33,230 nucleotides of DNA from an uncultured Lachnospiraceae bacterium. Lineage in GTDB: Bacteria > Bacillota > Clostridia > Lachnospirales > Lachnospiraceae. The notes beneath the pieces are model-generated. The model saw nothing but the letters and a program-made list of their open reading frames with translations. It did not search any database and was not told the origin of the DNA. The stretch spans positions 1-33,230 of the forward strand of contig CANQME010000028.1 in assembly GCA_947624815.1 (NCBI GenBank), written 5' to 3'. Both the position numbers and the translations under genes were made by a program. Positions 1,017-28,933 of the stretch are shown here, in pieces (position 1 is the stretch's first letter; every line of letters starts with the position of its first letter).

Positions 1017-2438
1017 ATGCTGGTTGAGACAAAAGCAAGAGTTGGCGTATTCGCCATCGCGTTGGGCGCCTATCTGCCCCAGTTTCCGTCGCTGGTGCCG
1101 GAATTTGAGTCTCAGTACGAGGCGTTTAAGAAGACGCTGCCGGATACGGTGGAGGTGATCGACGGGGGGCTGGTCACGACGAAGGAGCTGTCCATGGAGG
1201 CCGGGGACAAGTTCCGCGCCGCGGACGTGGATCTGGTGATCCTTCAGCTTCTGACCTACGCCACTTCCTATAACATGCTGCCGGCGGTCCGTGATCTGAA
1301 CGTGCCGGTGGTTCTGGTCAATCTTCAGAAGAAGAAAGCGCCTGATTATGCAAATACGGACACGGCTACCTGGCTGGGCGAGCTGTACGCCTGCGGCGCC
1401 GTCGGCGAGATGGTGGCGGATCTGGAGCGGGCCGGCAAGCGCCATGCGGTGATCACCGGCGTGGTAGAAGGCGGAGACGAGCAGGCGAAGGCGGAGATCG
1501 AGGACTGGTGCCGCGCGGCTCAGGTGCGCCGCCGCTTCCGCGATACGAATCTGGCGCAGATCGGACGTCCCTACCCGGGCATGATGGATCTGTATATCGA
1601 CGAGACGAACCTGTACCACAGGATGTTCCTTTATACCAAGCAGTTCGACTGGGAGAAAATGTGGGCGATCGCGGATCACATTACCGATGAGGAAGCCATT
1701 CGCGCCAAGGCGCAGGACATCCTTGACACCTTCGATATCGAGGGCGGCGGCACCATCGAGAAGGTCTGGGATATGGCCAGATATGTGGTCGCCTTCGAGC
1801 AGTGGGTGAAGGACGAGAAGCTGGCCCTGGTGGCGTCCCATTATGACGGCTTCGCCCAGGGCGTGGCCGGAAAGCTGGACAGCATGCTGATCCCGGCGTT
1901 CTCCATGCTGATCAAGCAGGGAACCGCCTGCGCGGTGGAGGGCGATATCAAGGTGGCCATGGCCATGAGCATCCTGAAGACGATCGCCGGCACCGGTCAG
2001 CTTTCCGAGATGTATTCCATCGACTTCAACGAGGATATCTGCATCATCGGCCATTCCGGCTCCGGAGACGCAGACATTTCCCAGGCGAAGAAGCCGACCA
2101 TGAAGATCGTTCCGGTGTTCCACGGCAAGACCGGAGGCGGCTATCTGACCCAGTTCTATCCGCCTACGGGTCCGGTTACCTATCTCGGCATCACCCAGGA
2201 CCGGGACGGTCATTTCAAATTCGTCGTGGCGGAGGGCGTCAATGAGCCAGGCCCGATCTTCACCTTCGGCGATACGAACATGCGCACCCGCTTTGCCTGC
2301 GGCGCGCGGGAATTCTGCAACCGCTGGAGCGAGGCCGGCCCGACGCACCATATGGCGGCGGCGGTCGGACGCCATATCGACACGATCCTGAAGGTGGCGA
2401 AGATCTTCGACGTGCCGGTGGATATCATTACGCGGTAG
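1017..2438 (+). CDS. L-fucose/L-arabinose isomerase family protein
   Basis: A 473-residue protein with AAGGAGGGG eight bases before its ATG. Length and layout match the AraA/FucI isomerase fold. In AraA the metal ligands are two acidic residues and two histidines; here Glu308 (VEGD), Asp336 or Glu339 (DFNED), His346 (GHSG) and His444/His445 (PTHH) fall at equivalent spacing, so the site looks intact. The family interconverts aldoses and ketoses using a divalent metal, in the cytoplasm. No sugar kinase, aldolase or transporter gene is next to it, so the substrate cannot be named. It appears monocistronic: a terminator precedes it and the next gene has its own promoter. Confidence 0.85.
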   Translation: MLVETKARVGVFAIALGAYLPQFPSLVPEFESQYEAFKKTLPDTVEVIDGGLVTTKELSMEAGDKFRAADVDLVILQLLTYATSYNMLPAVRDLNVPVVLVNLQKKKAPDYANTDTATWLGELYACGAVGEMVADLERAGKRHAVITGVVEGGDEQAKAEIEDWCRAAQVRRRFRDTNLAQIGRPYPGMMDLYIDETNLYHRMFLYTKQFDWEKMWAIADHITDEEAIRAKAQDILDTFDIEGGGTIEKVWDMARYVVAFEQWVKDEKLALVASHYDGFAQGVAGKLDSMLIPAFSMLIKQGTACAVEGDIKVAMAMSILKTIAGTGQLSEMYSIDFNEDICIIGHSGSGDADISQAKKPTMKIVPVFHGKTGGGYLTQFYPPTGPVTYLGITQDRDGHFKFVVAEGVNEPGPIFTFGDTNMRTRFACGAREFCNRWSEAGPTHHMAAAVGRHIDTILKVAKIFDVPVDIITR

Positions 2439-2466
2439 ATATCGCTGCGAGGCAGATAATTTCTCC

Positions 2467-2495
2467 TTGACTTTCCGGATTGCCGGTGGTATAAA
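2467..2495 (+). promoter_or_regulatory. Sigma-A promoter of the T-box/trpB2 transcript
   Basis: TTGACT at 2467-2472, a 17-bp spacer, and TATAAA at 2490-2495. Transcription would start near 2502, just before stem I of the T-box leader. Confidence 0.8.
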
Positions 2496-2499
2496 TACC

Positions 2500-2769
2500 C
2501 TTAGAAACCTTTGAGGGAGAGTAAGTACCCAATGCGGAAGGTTGCAGAGAGCTGCCGGCGGTGGAAAGGCGGTACGGGAAGCACTGGGGAATGGGCTCCT
2601 GAGGGCGAGCGGAACTTACAGTATGCGAGCCGGAGAAGAGATCTCCGTTATCAAAATCAGCATATGATACGTATGCGCTGAGAGGGTACCGATGTACCAA
2701 GCCGGGTGGCACCGCAGGAGTTGAATCGCTCCTGTCCCTGCATTTGATTGTGGGGACGGGAGCTTTTTT
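2500..2769 (+). ncRNA. T-box riboswitch, tryptophan-specific
   Basis: A T-box leader RNA that reads uncharged tRNA and controls the downstream gene by antitermination. Visible parts: an AGTAAGTA-like stem I start, an AGAGAGC element (2546-2552), the segment GAA-TGG-GCTCCTGAG whose specifier triplet TGG is at 2592-2594, and the conserved T-box AAGCCGGGTGGCACCGC at 2699-2715. CAGGAG (2715-2720) can pair with CTCCTG (2729-2734) as antiterminator. The competing terminator pairs 2728-2738 with 2753-2763 and is followed by six T. TGG is the tryptophan codon, so low charging of tRNA-Trp should switch on trpB2. The specifier is assigned by position relative to the GAA and CCTGAG landmarks. Confidence 0.93.
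2728..2769 (+). terminator. Regulated terminator of the T-box leader
   Basis: An 11-bp stem with one G-U pair, followed by TTTTTT at 2764-2769. Its 5' arm overlaps the antiterminator arm CTCCTG, giving the two alternative states of the switch. Confidence 0.9.
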
Positions 2770-2881
2770 GATGCTCAGGCGGGAAGCGGCCGAGTTCCCG
2801 GCGAACGGCCTGCCTGCGGCGGATAGATTCTCCGGTTCCGGCAATCATAACTCTATTAAATCATTTTTGGAGGTAAGAAAG

Positions 2882-4270
2882 ATGAAACAGGAAAGCAAGA
2901 TCCCCTACAAGATCTATCTGGAAGAGAGCGAGATGCCGACCAGCTGGTACAACATGCGCGCTGACATGAAGAATAAGCCGGCGCCCCTTCTGAACCCGGG
3001 TACCCTGAAGCCCATGACCTTTGAGGAGCTTCGCGGCGTATTCTGCGACGATTTGGTCCGTCAGGAACTGGACGATACCACGGCGTATGTGGAGATTCCC
3101 GAGGAGATCCGCAATTTCTACAGGATGTACCGTCCTTCGCCGCTTGTCCGCGCTTACTGCCTGGAGGAGAAGCTTCAGACTCCGGCGAAGATCTACTATA
3201 AGTTCGAGGGAAACAACACCTCCGGCAGCCACAAGCTGAATTCCGCCATCGCTCAGGCATATTACGCGAAGAAGCAGGGCTTAAAGGGCGTGACCACGGA
3301 GACCGGCGCCGGACAGTGGGGCACGGCCCTGTCTATGGCCTGCGCGTACCTGGGCCTGGACTGCAAGGTGTATATGGTGAAGGTTTCCTACGAGCAGAAG
3401 CCGTTCCGCCGCGAGGTGATGCGCACCTACGGAGCTTCCGTGACGCCGTCTCCGTCCATGGAGACTGAGGTGGGCCGCAAGATCCTTGCGGAGCATCCGG
3501 GAACCACCGGAAGCCTGGGCTGCGCCATTTCCGAGGCTGTGGAAGTAGCTACGACCAATGAAGGCTACCGCTACGTGCTGGGAAGCGTTCTGAATCAGGT
3601 GCTGCTGCATCAGTCGGTCATCGGTCTGGAGTCCAAGATCGCCATGGACAAATACGGCATCACTCCGGATATCATCATCGGCTGCGCCGGCGGCGGCTCC
3701 AACCTGGGCGGCCTGATCGCTCCGTTCATGGGCGAGAAGCTGCGCGGCGAGAAGGATTACCGGGTCATCGCTGTTGAGCCGGCGTCCTGCCCCAGCTTTA
3801 CCAGAGGCAAGTTCGCCTATGACTTCTGTGATACCGGCATGATCTGCCCGCTGGCGAAGATGTACACCCTGGGCAGCGGCTTCATTCCGTCTCCGAACCA
3901 CGCCGGCGGACTTCGGTTCCACGGCATGAGCACGATCCTGTCCCAGCTGTATCATGACGGTCTGATGGAGGCGACCTCCGTGGAGCAGACGTCGGTATTC
4001 GAGGCTGCGGAGATGTTCGCGAGAGTGGAGGGCATCCTTCCGGCTCCGGAGAGCGCCCATGCGATCCGCGTGGCCATCGACGAGGCCCTGAAGTGCAAGG
4101 AGACCGGCGAGGAGAAGACGATCCTCTTCGGTCTGACCGGAACCGGATACTTCGATCTGGTGGCTTACGAGAAGTTCAATGACGGCGTCATGAACGACTA
4201 TATTCCGACAGACGAGGATCTGCAGAAGGGCTTCGACGGAATCCCCAAATTCCCGGGCAACGAAATCTGA
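2882..4270 (+). CDS. trpB: TrpB2-type tryptophan synthase beta-like enzyme
   Basis: A 462-residue PLP enzyme. The ATG at 2882 follows TTGGAGGTAAG; an in-frame extension upstream runs into the T-box and is not used. Lys118 in GSHKLN is the expected PLP lysine, Glu140 in TETGAGQWG the catalytic acid, and GCAGGGSN (267-274) binds the cofactor phosphate. The N-terminal extension of about 80 residues and the overall length fit the TrpB2 subfamily rather than classical TrpB of about 400 residues. It would join indole (or indoleglycerol-derived indole) to serine. No trpA or other trp gene is nearby. The Trp-specific T-box directly upstream links its expression to tRNA-Trp charging, which supports tryptophan supply, possibly by indole salvage. 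Confidence 0.93.
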   Translation: MKQESKIPYKIYLEESEMPTSWYNMRADMKNKPAPLLNPGTLKPMTFEELRGVFCDDLVRQELDDTTAYVEIPEEIRNFYRMYRPSPLVRAYCLEEKLQTPAKIYYKFEGNNTSGSHKLNSAIAQAYYAKKQGLKGVTTETGAGQWGTALSMACAYLGLDCKVYMVKVSYEQKPFRREVMRTYGASVTPSPSMETEVGRKILAEHPGTTGSLGCAISEAVEVATTNEGYRYVLGSVLNQVLLHQSVIGLESKIAMDKYGITPDIIIGCAGGGSNLGGLIAPFMGEKLRGEKDYRVIAVEPASCPSFTRGKFAYDFCDTGMICPLAKMYTLGSGFIPSPNHAGGLRFHGMSTILSQLYHDGLMEATSVEQTSVFEAAEMFARVEGILPAPESAHAIRVAIDEALKCKETGEEKTILFGLTGTGYFDLVAYEKFNDGVMNDYIPTDEDLQKGFDGIPKFPGNEI

Positions 4271-26674: not shown

Positions 26675-26686
26675 GAACAAATGTTC
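26675..26686 (+). promoter_or_regulatory. LexA (SOS) box 1
   Basis: GAACAAATGTTC matches the Gram-positive LexA core GAAC-RNRY-GTTY exactly. It lies 10 bases upstream of the -35 box of the radical-SAM gene. Confidence 0.8.
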
Positions 26687-26696
26687 GAAATAGCAC

Positions 26697-26725
26697 TTGC
26701 TTTTTCATGGCCTCTGTGGTAAACT
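26697..26725 (+). promoter_or_regulatory. Promoter of the radical-SAM DNA repair operon
   Basis: TTGCTT (26697-26702), 17-bp spacer, TAAACT (26720-26725), framed by the two LexA boxes. Confidence 0.7.
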
Positions 26726-26732
26726 ATGGACA

Positions 26733-26744
26733 GAACATATGTTT
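26733..26744 (+). promoter_or_regulatory. LexA (SOS) box 2
   Basis: GAACATATGTTT also fits GAAC-RNRY-GTTY. It covers the expected transcription start, a position where bound LexA would block RNA polymerase. Confidence 0.8.
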
Positions 26745-26761
26745 GCCATGGAGGCTGTTTT

Positions 26762-28135
26762 ATGCTGATACAACAGAACATGGAGCTTAGGGAGAAGCTG
26801 GCGATCCTTGCGGATGCTGCGAAGTATGATGTGGCATGTACCTCCAGCGGTGTGGAGAGGAAGGGCAGACCGGGGCAGCTGGGAAGCACGGTCTATGCCG
26901 GACTGTGTCACAGCTTTGCCGCCGACGGCCGCTGTATTTCCCTCCTGAAGATCCTGTACACGAATCAGTGCATTTATGACTGCCGGTACTGTATTAACCG
27001 CCGTTCGAATGATGTGCCGCGTGCGGCGTTTACTCCGGACGAGGTCTGCCGGCTGACGATGGAATTTTACCGCCGCAATTACATAGAAGGGCTGTTTCTG
27101 AGCTCCGGCATCCTTAAGAGCCCCGATTATACGATGGATCTGCTCTATCAGACCCTCTGGAAGCTGCGCTATGTGCATGGCTTTAACGGTTATATCCATA
27201 TTAAGGCGATTCCGGGAGCGGATCCGGTTCTGATCGAGCGGGTGGGGCTACTGGCTGACAGGATGAGCGTGAACCTTGAGCTTCCTACCTCAGAAGGGCT
27301 GAAGAGACTGGCCCCGTCCAAAGACAGGACACGGATCCTGACGCCTATGCGTCAGATCCAGAGAGGGATCGCCGGTCAGAAGCAGGGGATCGTGCCGGCG
27401 CCCGGAGTGGAGAGGAACGTGCCGTACCGGTGGAAGCGGCAGTTTGTGCCGGCGGGGCAGAGCACGCAGCTGATCGTGGGCGCTACGCCGGAGAATGATT
27501 ACCAGATGATAGCGGTGGCGGAAGCGCTTTATAAGAATTATGATCTGAAGAGGGTATTCTACTCGGCGTTTGTCCGGGTGAATGACGACAGTCTGCTTCC
27601 CGCGCTGCCCGGAGGGCCGCCGCTTCTTCGGGAACACAGACTCTATCAGGCGGACTGGCTGCTGCGGTTTTATGGCTTCTCGGCGGGAGAGCTTCTGTCG
27701 GAGACGAGTCCGAATTTTAATGTGTTTCTGGATCCCAAGTGCGACTGGGCGCTGCGGCATCTGGAGCGGTTCCCGGTGGAGGTCCGGACCGCGGATTACG
27801 ATACGCTGCTGCGGGTGCCCGGCATCGGCGTCCGTTCCGCGAAGCGGATTGTGACGGCGAGACGGAGCGGGAGGCTTGGGTTTGAGGATCTTAAGAGGAT
27901 GGGAGTCGTGCTGAAGCGTGCCGTCTATTTCCTGACATGCGGAGGCAGGATGATGTATCCGCTGCAGATCGACCGGGATTTCATCACCGCGCAGCTTCTG
28001 GGGGAGGAGAAGCGGCGGGCGTGGGATATCGGGCAGAAGGACAGCTACCGGCAGATGTCCATGTTTGATGACGGGTTTCTGAATCCGGCGCCGACAGAGG
28101 AAGACAGGCTCACGGCGGTTCTGGGTCAGATGTAG
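26762..28135 (+). CDS. Putative DNA modification/repair radical SAM protein (TIGR03916-type)
   Basis: A 457-residue radical-SAM enzyme; the ATG at 26762 follows ATGGAGGC, while an earlier in-frame ATG at 26726 would lie at the transcription start. Cys70, Cys74 and Cys77 form the C-x3-C-x2-C motif that holds the 4Fe-4S cluster. The middle resembles the radical-SAM barrel (FLSSGI, YIHIKAIPGA, NLELPT). A helix-hairpin-helix DNA-binding motif, RVPGIGVRSAKRI, is near 350-362. I recall this family as the partner of TIGR03915/uracil-DNA-glycosylase-linked proteins, function unproven. It precedes the TIGR03915-type gene by 33 bases, and two LexA boxes at the promoter suggest SOS induction. Confidence 0.9.
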   Translation: MLIQQNMELREKLAILADAAKYDVACTSSGVERKGRPGQLGSTVYAGLCHSFAADGRCISLLKILYTNQCIYDCRYCINRRSNDVPRAAFTPDEVCRLTMEFYRRNYIEGLFLSSGILKSPDYTMDLLYQTLWKLRYVHGFNGYIHIKAIPGADPVLIERVGLLADRMSVNLELPTSEGLKRLAPSKDRTRILTPMRQIQRGIAGQKQGIVPAPGVERNVPYRWKRQFVPAGQSTQLIVGATPENDYQMIAVAEALYKNYDLKRVFYSAFVRVNDDSLLPALPGGPPLLREHRLYQADWLLRFYGFSAGELLSETSPNFNVFLDPKCDWALRHLERFPVEVRTADYDTLLRVPGIGVRSAKRIVTARRSGRLGFEDLKRMGVVLKRAVYFLTCGGRMMYPLQIDRDFITAQLLGEEKRRAWDIGQKDSYRQMSMFDDGFLNPAPTEEDRLTAVLGQM

Positions 28136-28168
28136 AGAAGGGGACATACAGAGAGGAGGAGGACGGCT

Positions 28169-28933
28169 GTGACGGTATTTACGTGTGCGGATTCCTTCGA
28201 AGGGATTCTGTGCGGAGTCTACGATGCGTGGATGAGCAGGCTTGGGCATGCGAATGTGTGCCTGGAGCTGGCGGACATGGGGAATCTGCGTATGTTTGCC
28301 GAGTACAGGCAGGTGGAGGAGGATCCGGAAAAGGCGGACAGGGTGATCGGCGCGATCCGGAGAAAGGCCGGACAGGGAGTCTATGAGTGTGTCTATCATG
28401 CCTCCCTGAGCTGTGAGGAGCAGAAGGCGGATCGGATCTACCGCTTTCTTGTGTATGCGCTGCATACGGGGCCTGAGATAGTGGGTATGCTGCATATTCC
28501 GGCGGTCTATGAGCTGTTCCGGATGAACCGGTTTGTAACGAACGAGGCGATGCATATGATTGAATTCGTGCGTTTCTCCCAGACAGAGGGCGGGATCCTT
28601 TTCGGAACGGCCGCGCCGAAAAACGACGTGGTTCCTCTGATGGCGCCGCACTTTGCGGACCGGCTGAATGCGGAGAACTGGGTCATCTATGATGAAAAGC
28701 GGCGCAAGGCGGCAATTCACCGTGCCATGGGAGAGTGGATCCTGGCAGAGCTGCCGGACGACAGCTTCCGCAGGAGACTGGCGGAGGCCGGAGATCAGGC
28801 AGAATTCGAGAACCTGTGGAGAACCTATCACAAGCATATCGCCATCGCTGAGAGGACGAATCCGCGCTGCCAGATGAATCATCTTCCTCTGCGGTTCCGG
28901 CCTTATATGACCGAATTTCAGAAAGGAGTTTAA
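28169..28933 (+). CDS. TIGR03915-type putative DNA repair protein
   Basis: A 254-residue protein starting with GTG after GAGAGGAGGAGG. The N-terminal half includes FEGILCGVYDAW and the C-terminal half ELFRMNRFVTNEAMHMIEF (about 114-133), FGTAAPKNDVVPLMAPHF and RTYHKHIAIAERTNPRCQMN, all features of the TIGR03915 family. In many bacteria this domain is joined to a uracil-DNA glycosylase; here it stands alone beside the radical-SAM partner. No transmembrane segment. Its reaction is not known; DNA repair is inferred from gene fusions in the family and the LexA boxes. Confidence 0.88.
   Translation: MTVFTCADSFEGILCGVYDAWMSRLGHANVCLELADMGNLRMFAEYRQVEEDPEKADRVIGAIRRKAGQGVYECVYHASLSCEEQKADRIYRFLVYALHTGPEIVGMLHIPAVYELFRMNRFVTNEAMHMIEFVRFSQTEGGILFGTAAPKNDVVPLMAPHFADRLNAENWVIYDEKRRKAAIHRAMGEWILAELPDDSFRRRLAEAGDQAEFENLWRTYHKHIAIAERTNPRCQMNHLPLRFRPYMTEFQKGV

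Follow-up and report, generated by a model that had tools for sequence, protein, structure and literature searches.

The question raised by positions 26675 to 28933 of a 33,230 nt contig stretch (33 kb) from an uncultured Lachnospiraceae bacterium, hereafter the window, was what a radical S-adenosylmethionine (radical-SAM) protein of the TIGR03916 family and its TIGR03915/DUF4130 partner do, and how the expression of their genes is controlled. Based on the comparison with relatives, it was concluded that an SOS control of the pair, as predicted from the upstream sequences, is strongly supported. A role of the pair in DNA repair is likely, and the radical-SAM protein likely binds the sliding clamp, as judged from a short motif in its C-terminal tail. 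All coordinates given without a locus name are window positions.

The radical-SAM protein of 457 aa (26762..28135, + strand) matched the TIGR03916 profile (rSAM_link_UDG) over profile positions 1-415 of 415 with a score of 659 bits, the cut-off being 343.5. The gene downstream (28169..28933, + strand) encoded a 254 aa protein, which scored 253.7 bits for TIGR03915 (cut-off 112.25) and 169.6 bits for Pfam DUF4130 (cut-off 27). LexA box 1, GAACAAATGTTC (26675..26686), was located 5' of the -35 element TTGCTT (26697..26702, + strand). The latter was separated by a 17 bp spacer from the -10 element TAAACT with a TGn extension (26720..26725, + strand), and LexA box 2, GAACATATGTTT (26733..26744), was positioned at the expected transcription start. 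An initial annotation of this DNA had described two LexA-core sites framing a promoter at 26697-26725 ahead of a radical-SAM and TIGR03915-type gene pair; the coordinates and the layout were confirmed, and both genes matched their families above the cut-offs. The promoter was not among the matches of a generic promoter scan. The ATG at 26762 was considered the most likely start of the TIGR03916 gene, with GGAGG at 26750-26754 ahead of it, and a start at 26726 was disfavoured.

The two boxes were the sole GAAC-N4-GTTY places within the window. The pattern was weak by itself: three strand-matches were found in the window when 1.5 were expected, and the whole genome had 76 forward sites (control, 49). 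Even the narrower RAAC-RWWY-GTTY pattern gave 15 forward sites (control, 11). Such site counts were dropped as a proof because GAAC-N4-GTTY was too degenerate, so the evidence for the boxes was sought in their position and conservation.

Of 150 genomes from the bacterial family of the window, 87 had a TIGR03916 match above the cut-off, as did 65 of 299 genomes from the phylum. The family loci (n = 85, 30 + 55) represented all of these 87 genomes except the window's own and one, G031, in which the gene was split over contigs; together with the window they gave 86 upstream regions of 250 bp, and the expected numbers were obtained from dinucleotide shuffles. At least one GAAC-N4-GTTC with no more than one mismatch was present in 83 of the 86 regions (6.4 expected), at least two boxes were present in 67 (0.3 expected), and a perfect copy was present in 43 (0.12 expected). 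When a locus with the gene cut by a contig end (L111) was set aside, at least one box was counted in 83/85 and at least two in 67/85 regions of the 84 relatives and the window, or in 82/84 and 66/84 regions when the window was excluded as well. The true misses among the family loci were L090 and L106, with no box in the 250 bp upstream. The search for the LexA pattern upstream of TIGR03916 homologues, which had been suggested as a check, was thereby answered positively for 82 of 84 family relatives and more weakly across the phylum, as weighed below.

The arrangement of the boxes was conserved too. The inter-box spacing was bimodal, with one class of 54-61 bp, to which the window belonged, and another of 23-36 bp. 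In the class of 54-61 bp, a promoter-like sequence (TTG-N3, 16-18 bp, TA-N3-T) was found between the boxes in 23/23 cases, the window included, when 0.86 was expected, and the distance to the start codon was far more variable than the box spacing. In the class of 23-36 bp, a promoter-like sequence was found nearby in 21 of 29 box pairs, and it overlapped box 1 in six of the six displayed. Among the named genomes, a box was present in 45/46 high-scoring loci. The named and family sets overlap, with 221 distinct proteins among 228. A divergent TIGR03916 subfamily of the phylum (L227-L239 and L261, about 330-420 bits) was observed as well. It mostly had its own divergent DUF4130 partner and at most one LexA box, and a box was recorded in 12 of its 14 loci.

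Further, relatives from another class were analyzed. Alphaproteobacterial LexA has been reported to bind GTTC-N7-GTTC (PMC8565304). Twelve alphaproteobacterial plasmid loci of distinct genera were chosen among the 40 records listed of 158 found. In 11 of them, the 150 bp ahead of the radical-SAM gene contained an exact GTTC-N7-GTTC (0.05 expected from shuffles), and the count was the same with one mismatch allowed (1.09 expected). The only betaproteobacterial locus checked had no GTTC-N7-GTTC copy upstream. The SOS control appears to have followed the change of the LexA motif between the clades. It is this switch, together with the conservation in the relatives, that strongly supports the SOS induction predicted by the initial annotation. 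The same annotation had presented the pair as an oxygen-sensitive system of an anaerobe, which proved too narrow, since the radical-SAM gene was also carried by plasmids of aerobic genera such as Phaeobacter, Agrobacterium, Paracoccus and Acinetobacter. The abundance of GAAC-N4-GTTY in the genome would suit boxes that arose by chance or are unused in front of a constitutive gene. Such an explanation is hardly credible, as the position and the number of the boxes were conserved across the relatives and the motif was switched in the Alphaproteobacteria.

The genome to which the window belongs encodes LexA (246 bits in a profile search), and the boxes GAACAAAGGTTT and GAATATGTGTTC were found 80 and 28 bp ahead of the lexA start. 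Boxes of the same type were found just upstream of recA (GAACATGTGTTT) and upstream of uvrA (AAACATTTGTTC). The operon hence shows what is expected of a LexA regulon member, namely a conserved box at the promoter and a motif shared with the lexA and recA genes of the host.

The radical-SAM protein was then considered by its conserved residues. The CX3CX2C motif (C70, C74 and C77; 26969..26992, + strand) was invariant across the alignments and, with the fold matches, assigned the protein to the radical-SAM superfamily; the score for Pfam PF04055 was below the threshold (25.6 vs 29.5 bits). The nearest solved folds were those of HydE, lipoyl synthase, HydG, biotin synthase and MiaB (E down to 1e-8). 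For the 50 folds listed, the TM-scores over the full query length were 0.32-0.39, and the similarity is therefore limited to a part of the protein. Several of these enzymes contain auxiliary clusters. An extra cysteine triad, C26, C49 and C58 (codons at 26837..26935, + strand), was kept in all 214 main-family rows, some of which were identical, in 14, 13 and 14 of the 14 divergent-subfamily members, respectively, and in 6 of 7 proteins from other phyla, the exception being Gemmatirosa. An auxiliary Fe-S cluster at this triad is a reasonable guess; the segment was of low confidence in the structure model. C393 and C327, which were mostly kept in the family, were not put forward as ligands, since most members of the divergent subfamily and most proteins from other phyla lack them. 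A helix-hairpin-helix (HhH) region, also named in the initial annotation, was assigned to residues 339-378 (27776..27895, + strand). The assignment was strengthened by a match of a profile built from the relatives to a ComEA-related HhH protein (E 0.0006) and weakened by a sub-threshold Pfam HHH_3 score (23.6 bits, cut-off 27). In addition, a variable insertion of up to ~100 residues was seen after the first barrel part, at columns ~205-335 of alignment A1, in many relatives (e.g., L052, L077 and L087), and others were without it.

The fold relationship to enzymes with auxiliary clusters, the conserved triad and the NCBI name of TIGR03916, 'putative DNA modification/repair', would also agree with a pair that installs or alters a DNA modification during the SOS response, by marking or by sulfur/methylthio insertion from the extra cluster, and repairs no lesion. 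We regard this as quite unlikely: repair is indicated by the clamp-type motif, by the UdgX fusion described below and by an SOS control predicted in two phyla. Besides, no gene other than DUF4130 (126 loci) was widely recurrent at the loci, the next cluster being found at 16.

The bacterial clamp-binding consensus has been given as QL[S/D]LF or QxxLF (PMC12309361). The tail of the radical-SAM protein was variable around a short constant core, with a consensus of Y-x-Q-L-S-L-F-D-D in alignment A1. In the window, the clamp-binding-type motif was QMSMF (residues 431-435; 28052..28066, + strand), the family consensus being QLSLF. A strict pattern, Q[LMI][STDA][LMFI][FW], was found in 191 of 227 tails, when 0.45 was expected from shuffled tails; by set, the counts were 77/84, 74/80 and 37/49. 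The tails were not made unique, and L225, which ends in EQLSLW, was omitted as its anchor was not located. The same pattern was found in none of 219 DUF4130 C-termini and in none of 228 radical-SAM proteins within the first 330 residues. Gln at column 431 was present in 84/84, 80/80, 48/50, 14/14 and 7/7 proteins of the aligned groups. All 16 relatives from Proteobacteria, Fusobacteriota and Gemmatimonadota ended in QL-x-L followed by F, W, L, I or GF, for example QLSLL, QLALF, QLSLF, QLKLF or QLSLW.

The position of the motif and its linker varied, when the core stayed the same, a pattern typical of short linear motifs. The region (residues 419-442) was of low confidence in the structure model. 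An accessible QL[SD]LF or QxxLF, which characterizes clamp-binding proteins, was thus found family-wide, and the binding of the sliding clamp by the radical-SAM protein is likely. The same short motif is known from PolC and DnaE, in PolC also near the C-terminus (PMC12309361); unlike these, the TIGR03916 protein is not a polymerase, and its clamp binding is predicted from the motif. No report of a clamp-binding motif in the TIGR03916 radical-SAM family was found in the literature searched.

As polymerases use motifs of this kind, the pair could also assist translesion synthesis or fork restart, with the replisome or 3' ends as its target in place of a base lesion. The Rad3/YoaA/DinG-type helicase encoded downstream in 16 named-genome loci would fit such a function. 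However, of the 101 loci in which the sequence extended for more than 1.5 kb past DUF4130, 73 were from named genomes; the helicase was found in 16 of these 73 and in none from the phylum set. It was located 42 to 1575 bp past DUF4130, and none was found beside the window pair. The accessory function is therefore judged unlikely.

The pairing of the two genes was close to strict. In 84 of 85 family loci, the radical-SAM gene was followed by a DUF4130 gene in the same orientation; the remaining locus, L054, was at a contig end. The profile search found DUF4130 in 83/84, 78/80 and 58/64 loci of the three sets. Among the 299 phylum genomes, with TIGR03915 taken at E 0.001 and TIGR03916 at its cut-off, both families were present in 64, TIGR03916 only in 1, TIGR03915 only in 4 and neither in 230. 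Three of the four TIGR03915-only genomes carried sub-threshold TIGR03916 fragments. The DUF4130 structure model was confident (pLDDT 92.9). No sequence relative of DUF4130 was found in the PDB even at E 10, and among 54 DUF4130 members, at most three matched any one Pfam family other than DUF4130 itself.

In all four proteobacterial loci checked, DUF4130 was fused to a UdgX domain. The fused domains carried the active-site motifs GEQPG, a KRRIH-type loop and HPS, which are given as UdgX motifs (PMC10359453). The pair in the window differs from this fusion: it stands without UdgX, as no TIGR03914 (UdgX) match was found in its genome, which is 87.8% complete. Weaker TIGR03914 matches, found in 203 of the 299 phylum genomes, are presumably other uracil glycosylases.

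Based on these results, we proposed that the pair forms an SOS-induced system in which a clamp-tethered radical enzyme processes damaged DNA together with DUF4130, and we hold this reading to be moderately probable. LexA bound to both boxes flanking the promoter would keep the two-gene operon off, and a RecA-triggered cleavage of LexA would lead to its expression. The radical-SAM protein would generate the 5'-deoxyadenosyl radical at a [4Fe-4S] site held by CX3CX2C, when C26, C49 and C58 would probably form a second metal site and the HhH module would serve for DNA. At gaps or at forks that have stalled, the flexible tail would hold the enzyme on the DnaN sliding clamp, and the radical chemistry would process a damaged base or sugar there. 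DUF4130, a near-obligate partner, might act as a product handler or a nuclease-like subunit. The lesion is probably of a base or abasic type, as UdgX, to which DUF4130 is fused in the Proteobacteria examined, captures uracil and abasic sites.

Several observations weigh against this proposal. The box was found in 20 of 29 lower-scoring loci of the named genomes and in 30 of 47 main loci of the phylum-wide sample, leaving 17 without it; as box conservation drops outside the family, SOS control by this LexA motif is not universal there. The strict tail pattern was present in only 3 of 14 tails of the divergent subfamily, the others being near variants such as QLSWDF, QLELW, QLGLF and QLSFI, and F or W occupied the fifth motif position in only 9 of the 16 relatives from other phyla. 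In the window copy itself, the fourth-position Leu is replaced by Met, and QLSLF has been reported to bind B. subtilis DnaN at only micromolar affinity (PMC12309361). TIGR03914 was above the cut-off in none of the 299 phylum genomes, so that the uracil or abasic link may not apply here. Finally, only weak similarities of the DHH/RecJ type came out of the fold search for DUF4130 (E 2e-4, TM 0.42 and rmsd 12 for the best). A nuclease was not claimed for DUF4130, as the DHH/RecJ/Cdc45-type matches were weak and poorly superposed.

A more specific version of the proposal is offered tentatively, and we consider it possible rather than probable. It assumes a replication-coupled radical repair, in which TIGR03916 would be loaded on the clamp during the SOS response, would use a LipA/MiaB-like second Fe-S site and would rewrite the lesion in new DNA together with DUF4130; Proteobacteria would have added UdgX, handing over captured uracil or abasic sites. 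If true, such a repair would be a widespread mode different from that of spore photoproduct lyase, radical-SAM chemistry would be tied to the replisome, and UdgX, the physiological role of which is unclear to our knowledge, would gain a context. The clamp-type motif, the cysteine site and the SOS control together provide a testable model in which a radical enzyme is brought to replication gaps.

For the comparison with described systems, COG4277 was taken to be the TIGR03916 radical-SAM family. SOS operons of COG1573 and COG4277 have been predicted in Bacteroidetes, with Verrucomicrobia and Alphaproteobacteria also cited (PMC8565304). The predicted SOS control is shared with the window pair, and the partner differs, being a uracil-DNA glycosylase protein in those operons and DUF4130 alone, with no TIGR03914 match, in the window. 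A LexA operon has also been predicted for CAC3343-CAC3344 of C. acetobutylicum, which by its description resembles the window pair in combining a radical-SAM 'DNA modification/repair' protein with an unknown protein (PMC3828012). A predicted box and expression data are described there, and the accessible part of that account does not name a clamp motif, a promoter architecture or a family-wide comparison. DUF4130 has been called a predicted mutagenesis-related enzyme linked to SplB-like radical-SAM proteins and uracil glycosylases (PMC3765255).

The SOS regulation of the pair is consequently already predicted and not new. The 'undescribed system' of the initial annotation was upheld in part: the families are catalogued and their LexA control had been predicted (PMC3828012, PMC8565304), when no described biochemistry for the pair was found in the literature searched, in which few subscription papers were covered. 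TIGR03916 as a name was not found in it either, and COG4277 and DUF4130 were each named in a single paper. Three features are new as far as that literature reaches, namely the clamp-type motif, the layouts with paired operators and the cysteine triad. Of the features reported here, the clamp-binding-type motif, the triad and the proteobacterial UdgX link were absent from the initial annotation.

Spore photoproduct lyase (SPL, SplB) is likewise a radical-SAM protein of DNA repair, with SOS control reported in some bacteria (PMC8565304, PMC3765255). An SPL-like enzyme reversing UV photoproducts would thus share the predicted SOS control, and it would suit a genome that has no SPL match of its own and encodes a sporulation sigma-K-type factor within the window. 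This is nevertheless very unlikely. The SPL family PF20903 had 0 matches in the genome containing this gene, so the window protein is not matched by it, SPL was absent from the 50 top-ranking folds, and the window protein has an HhH region and a clamp-type motif. The gene is also present in Proteobacteria, which form no endospores.

No extra operon members were proposed, as only DUF4130 recurred widely; a neighbour cluster of 11 loci consisted, by eye, of ABC transporters on both strands, and most of the smaller clusters were not identified. A defence system was rejected as a reading, since PADLOC had no match for either the radical-SAM or the DUF4130 gene. The DEAH helicase mentioned above was found at L121, L122, L123, L127, L131, L132, L135, L137, L141, L142, L144, L146, L147, L157, L162 and L166. 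It was mostly located ~500 bp after DUF4130 and is thus not clearly in the same operon. These helicases were 47-52% identical to the copy of locus L271 (L271:6109-8490), which gave a weak PD-(D/E)XK/Cas4-like N-terminal match.

The radical-SAM gene was also present in two viral contigs and in ten phage records, of which two were of Acinetobacter phage and eight, derived from fecal samples, were labelled only 'Bacteriophage sp.'. The phage-labelled record L271 (MT835514.1) carried the radical-SAM gene, a DUF4130-like open reading frame and the helicase, and the viral-labelled record L303 (IMGVR_UViG_3300006947_003566) carried the radical-SAM gene. Both records are possibly bacterial DNA.

Other LexA-type sites were observed in the same genome. 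Five LexA-box-like sites were clustered in ~110 bp, 420-530 bp upstream of lexA (L116:1817-1925, equal to G000:C31:27816-27924), and a 39-base piece with GAACAAAGGTTT was present in this cluster and again at the lexA promoter. On another contig, a box, AAACAAATGTTC (G000:C87, 4501-4512), was located 53 bp upstream of a DarT-type gene. The open reading frames of this locus, L280, were a DarT-type DNA ADP-ribosyltransferase toxin gene (1554-2159) followed by that of a macrodomain protein (2174-3010). The toxin scored 140.6 bits for Pfam DarT and was under the cut-off for NCBIfam DarT. This DarTG-like module may be under the control of LexA as well.

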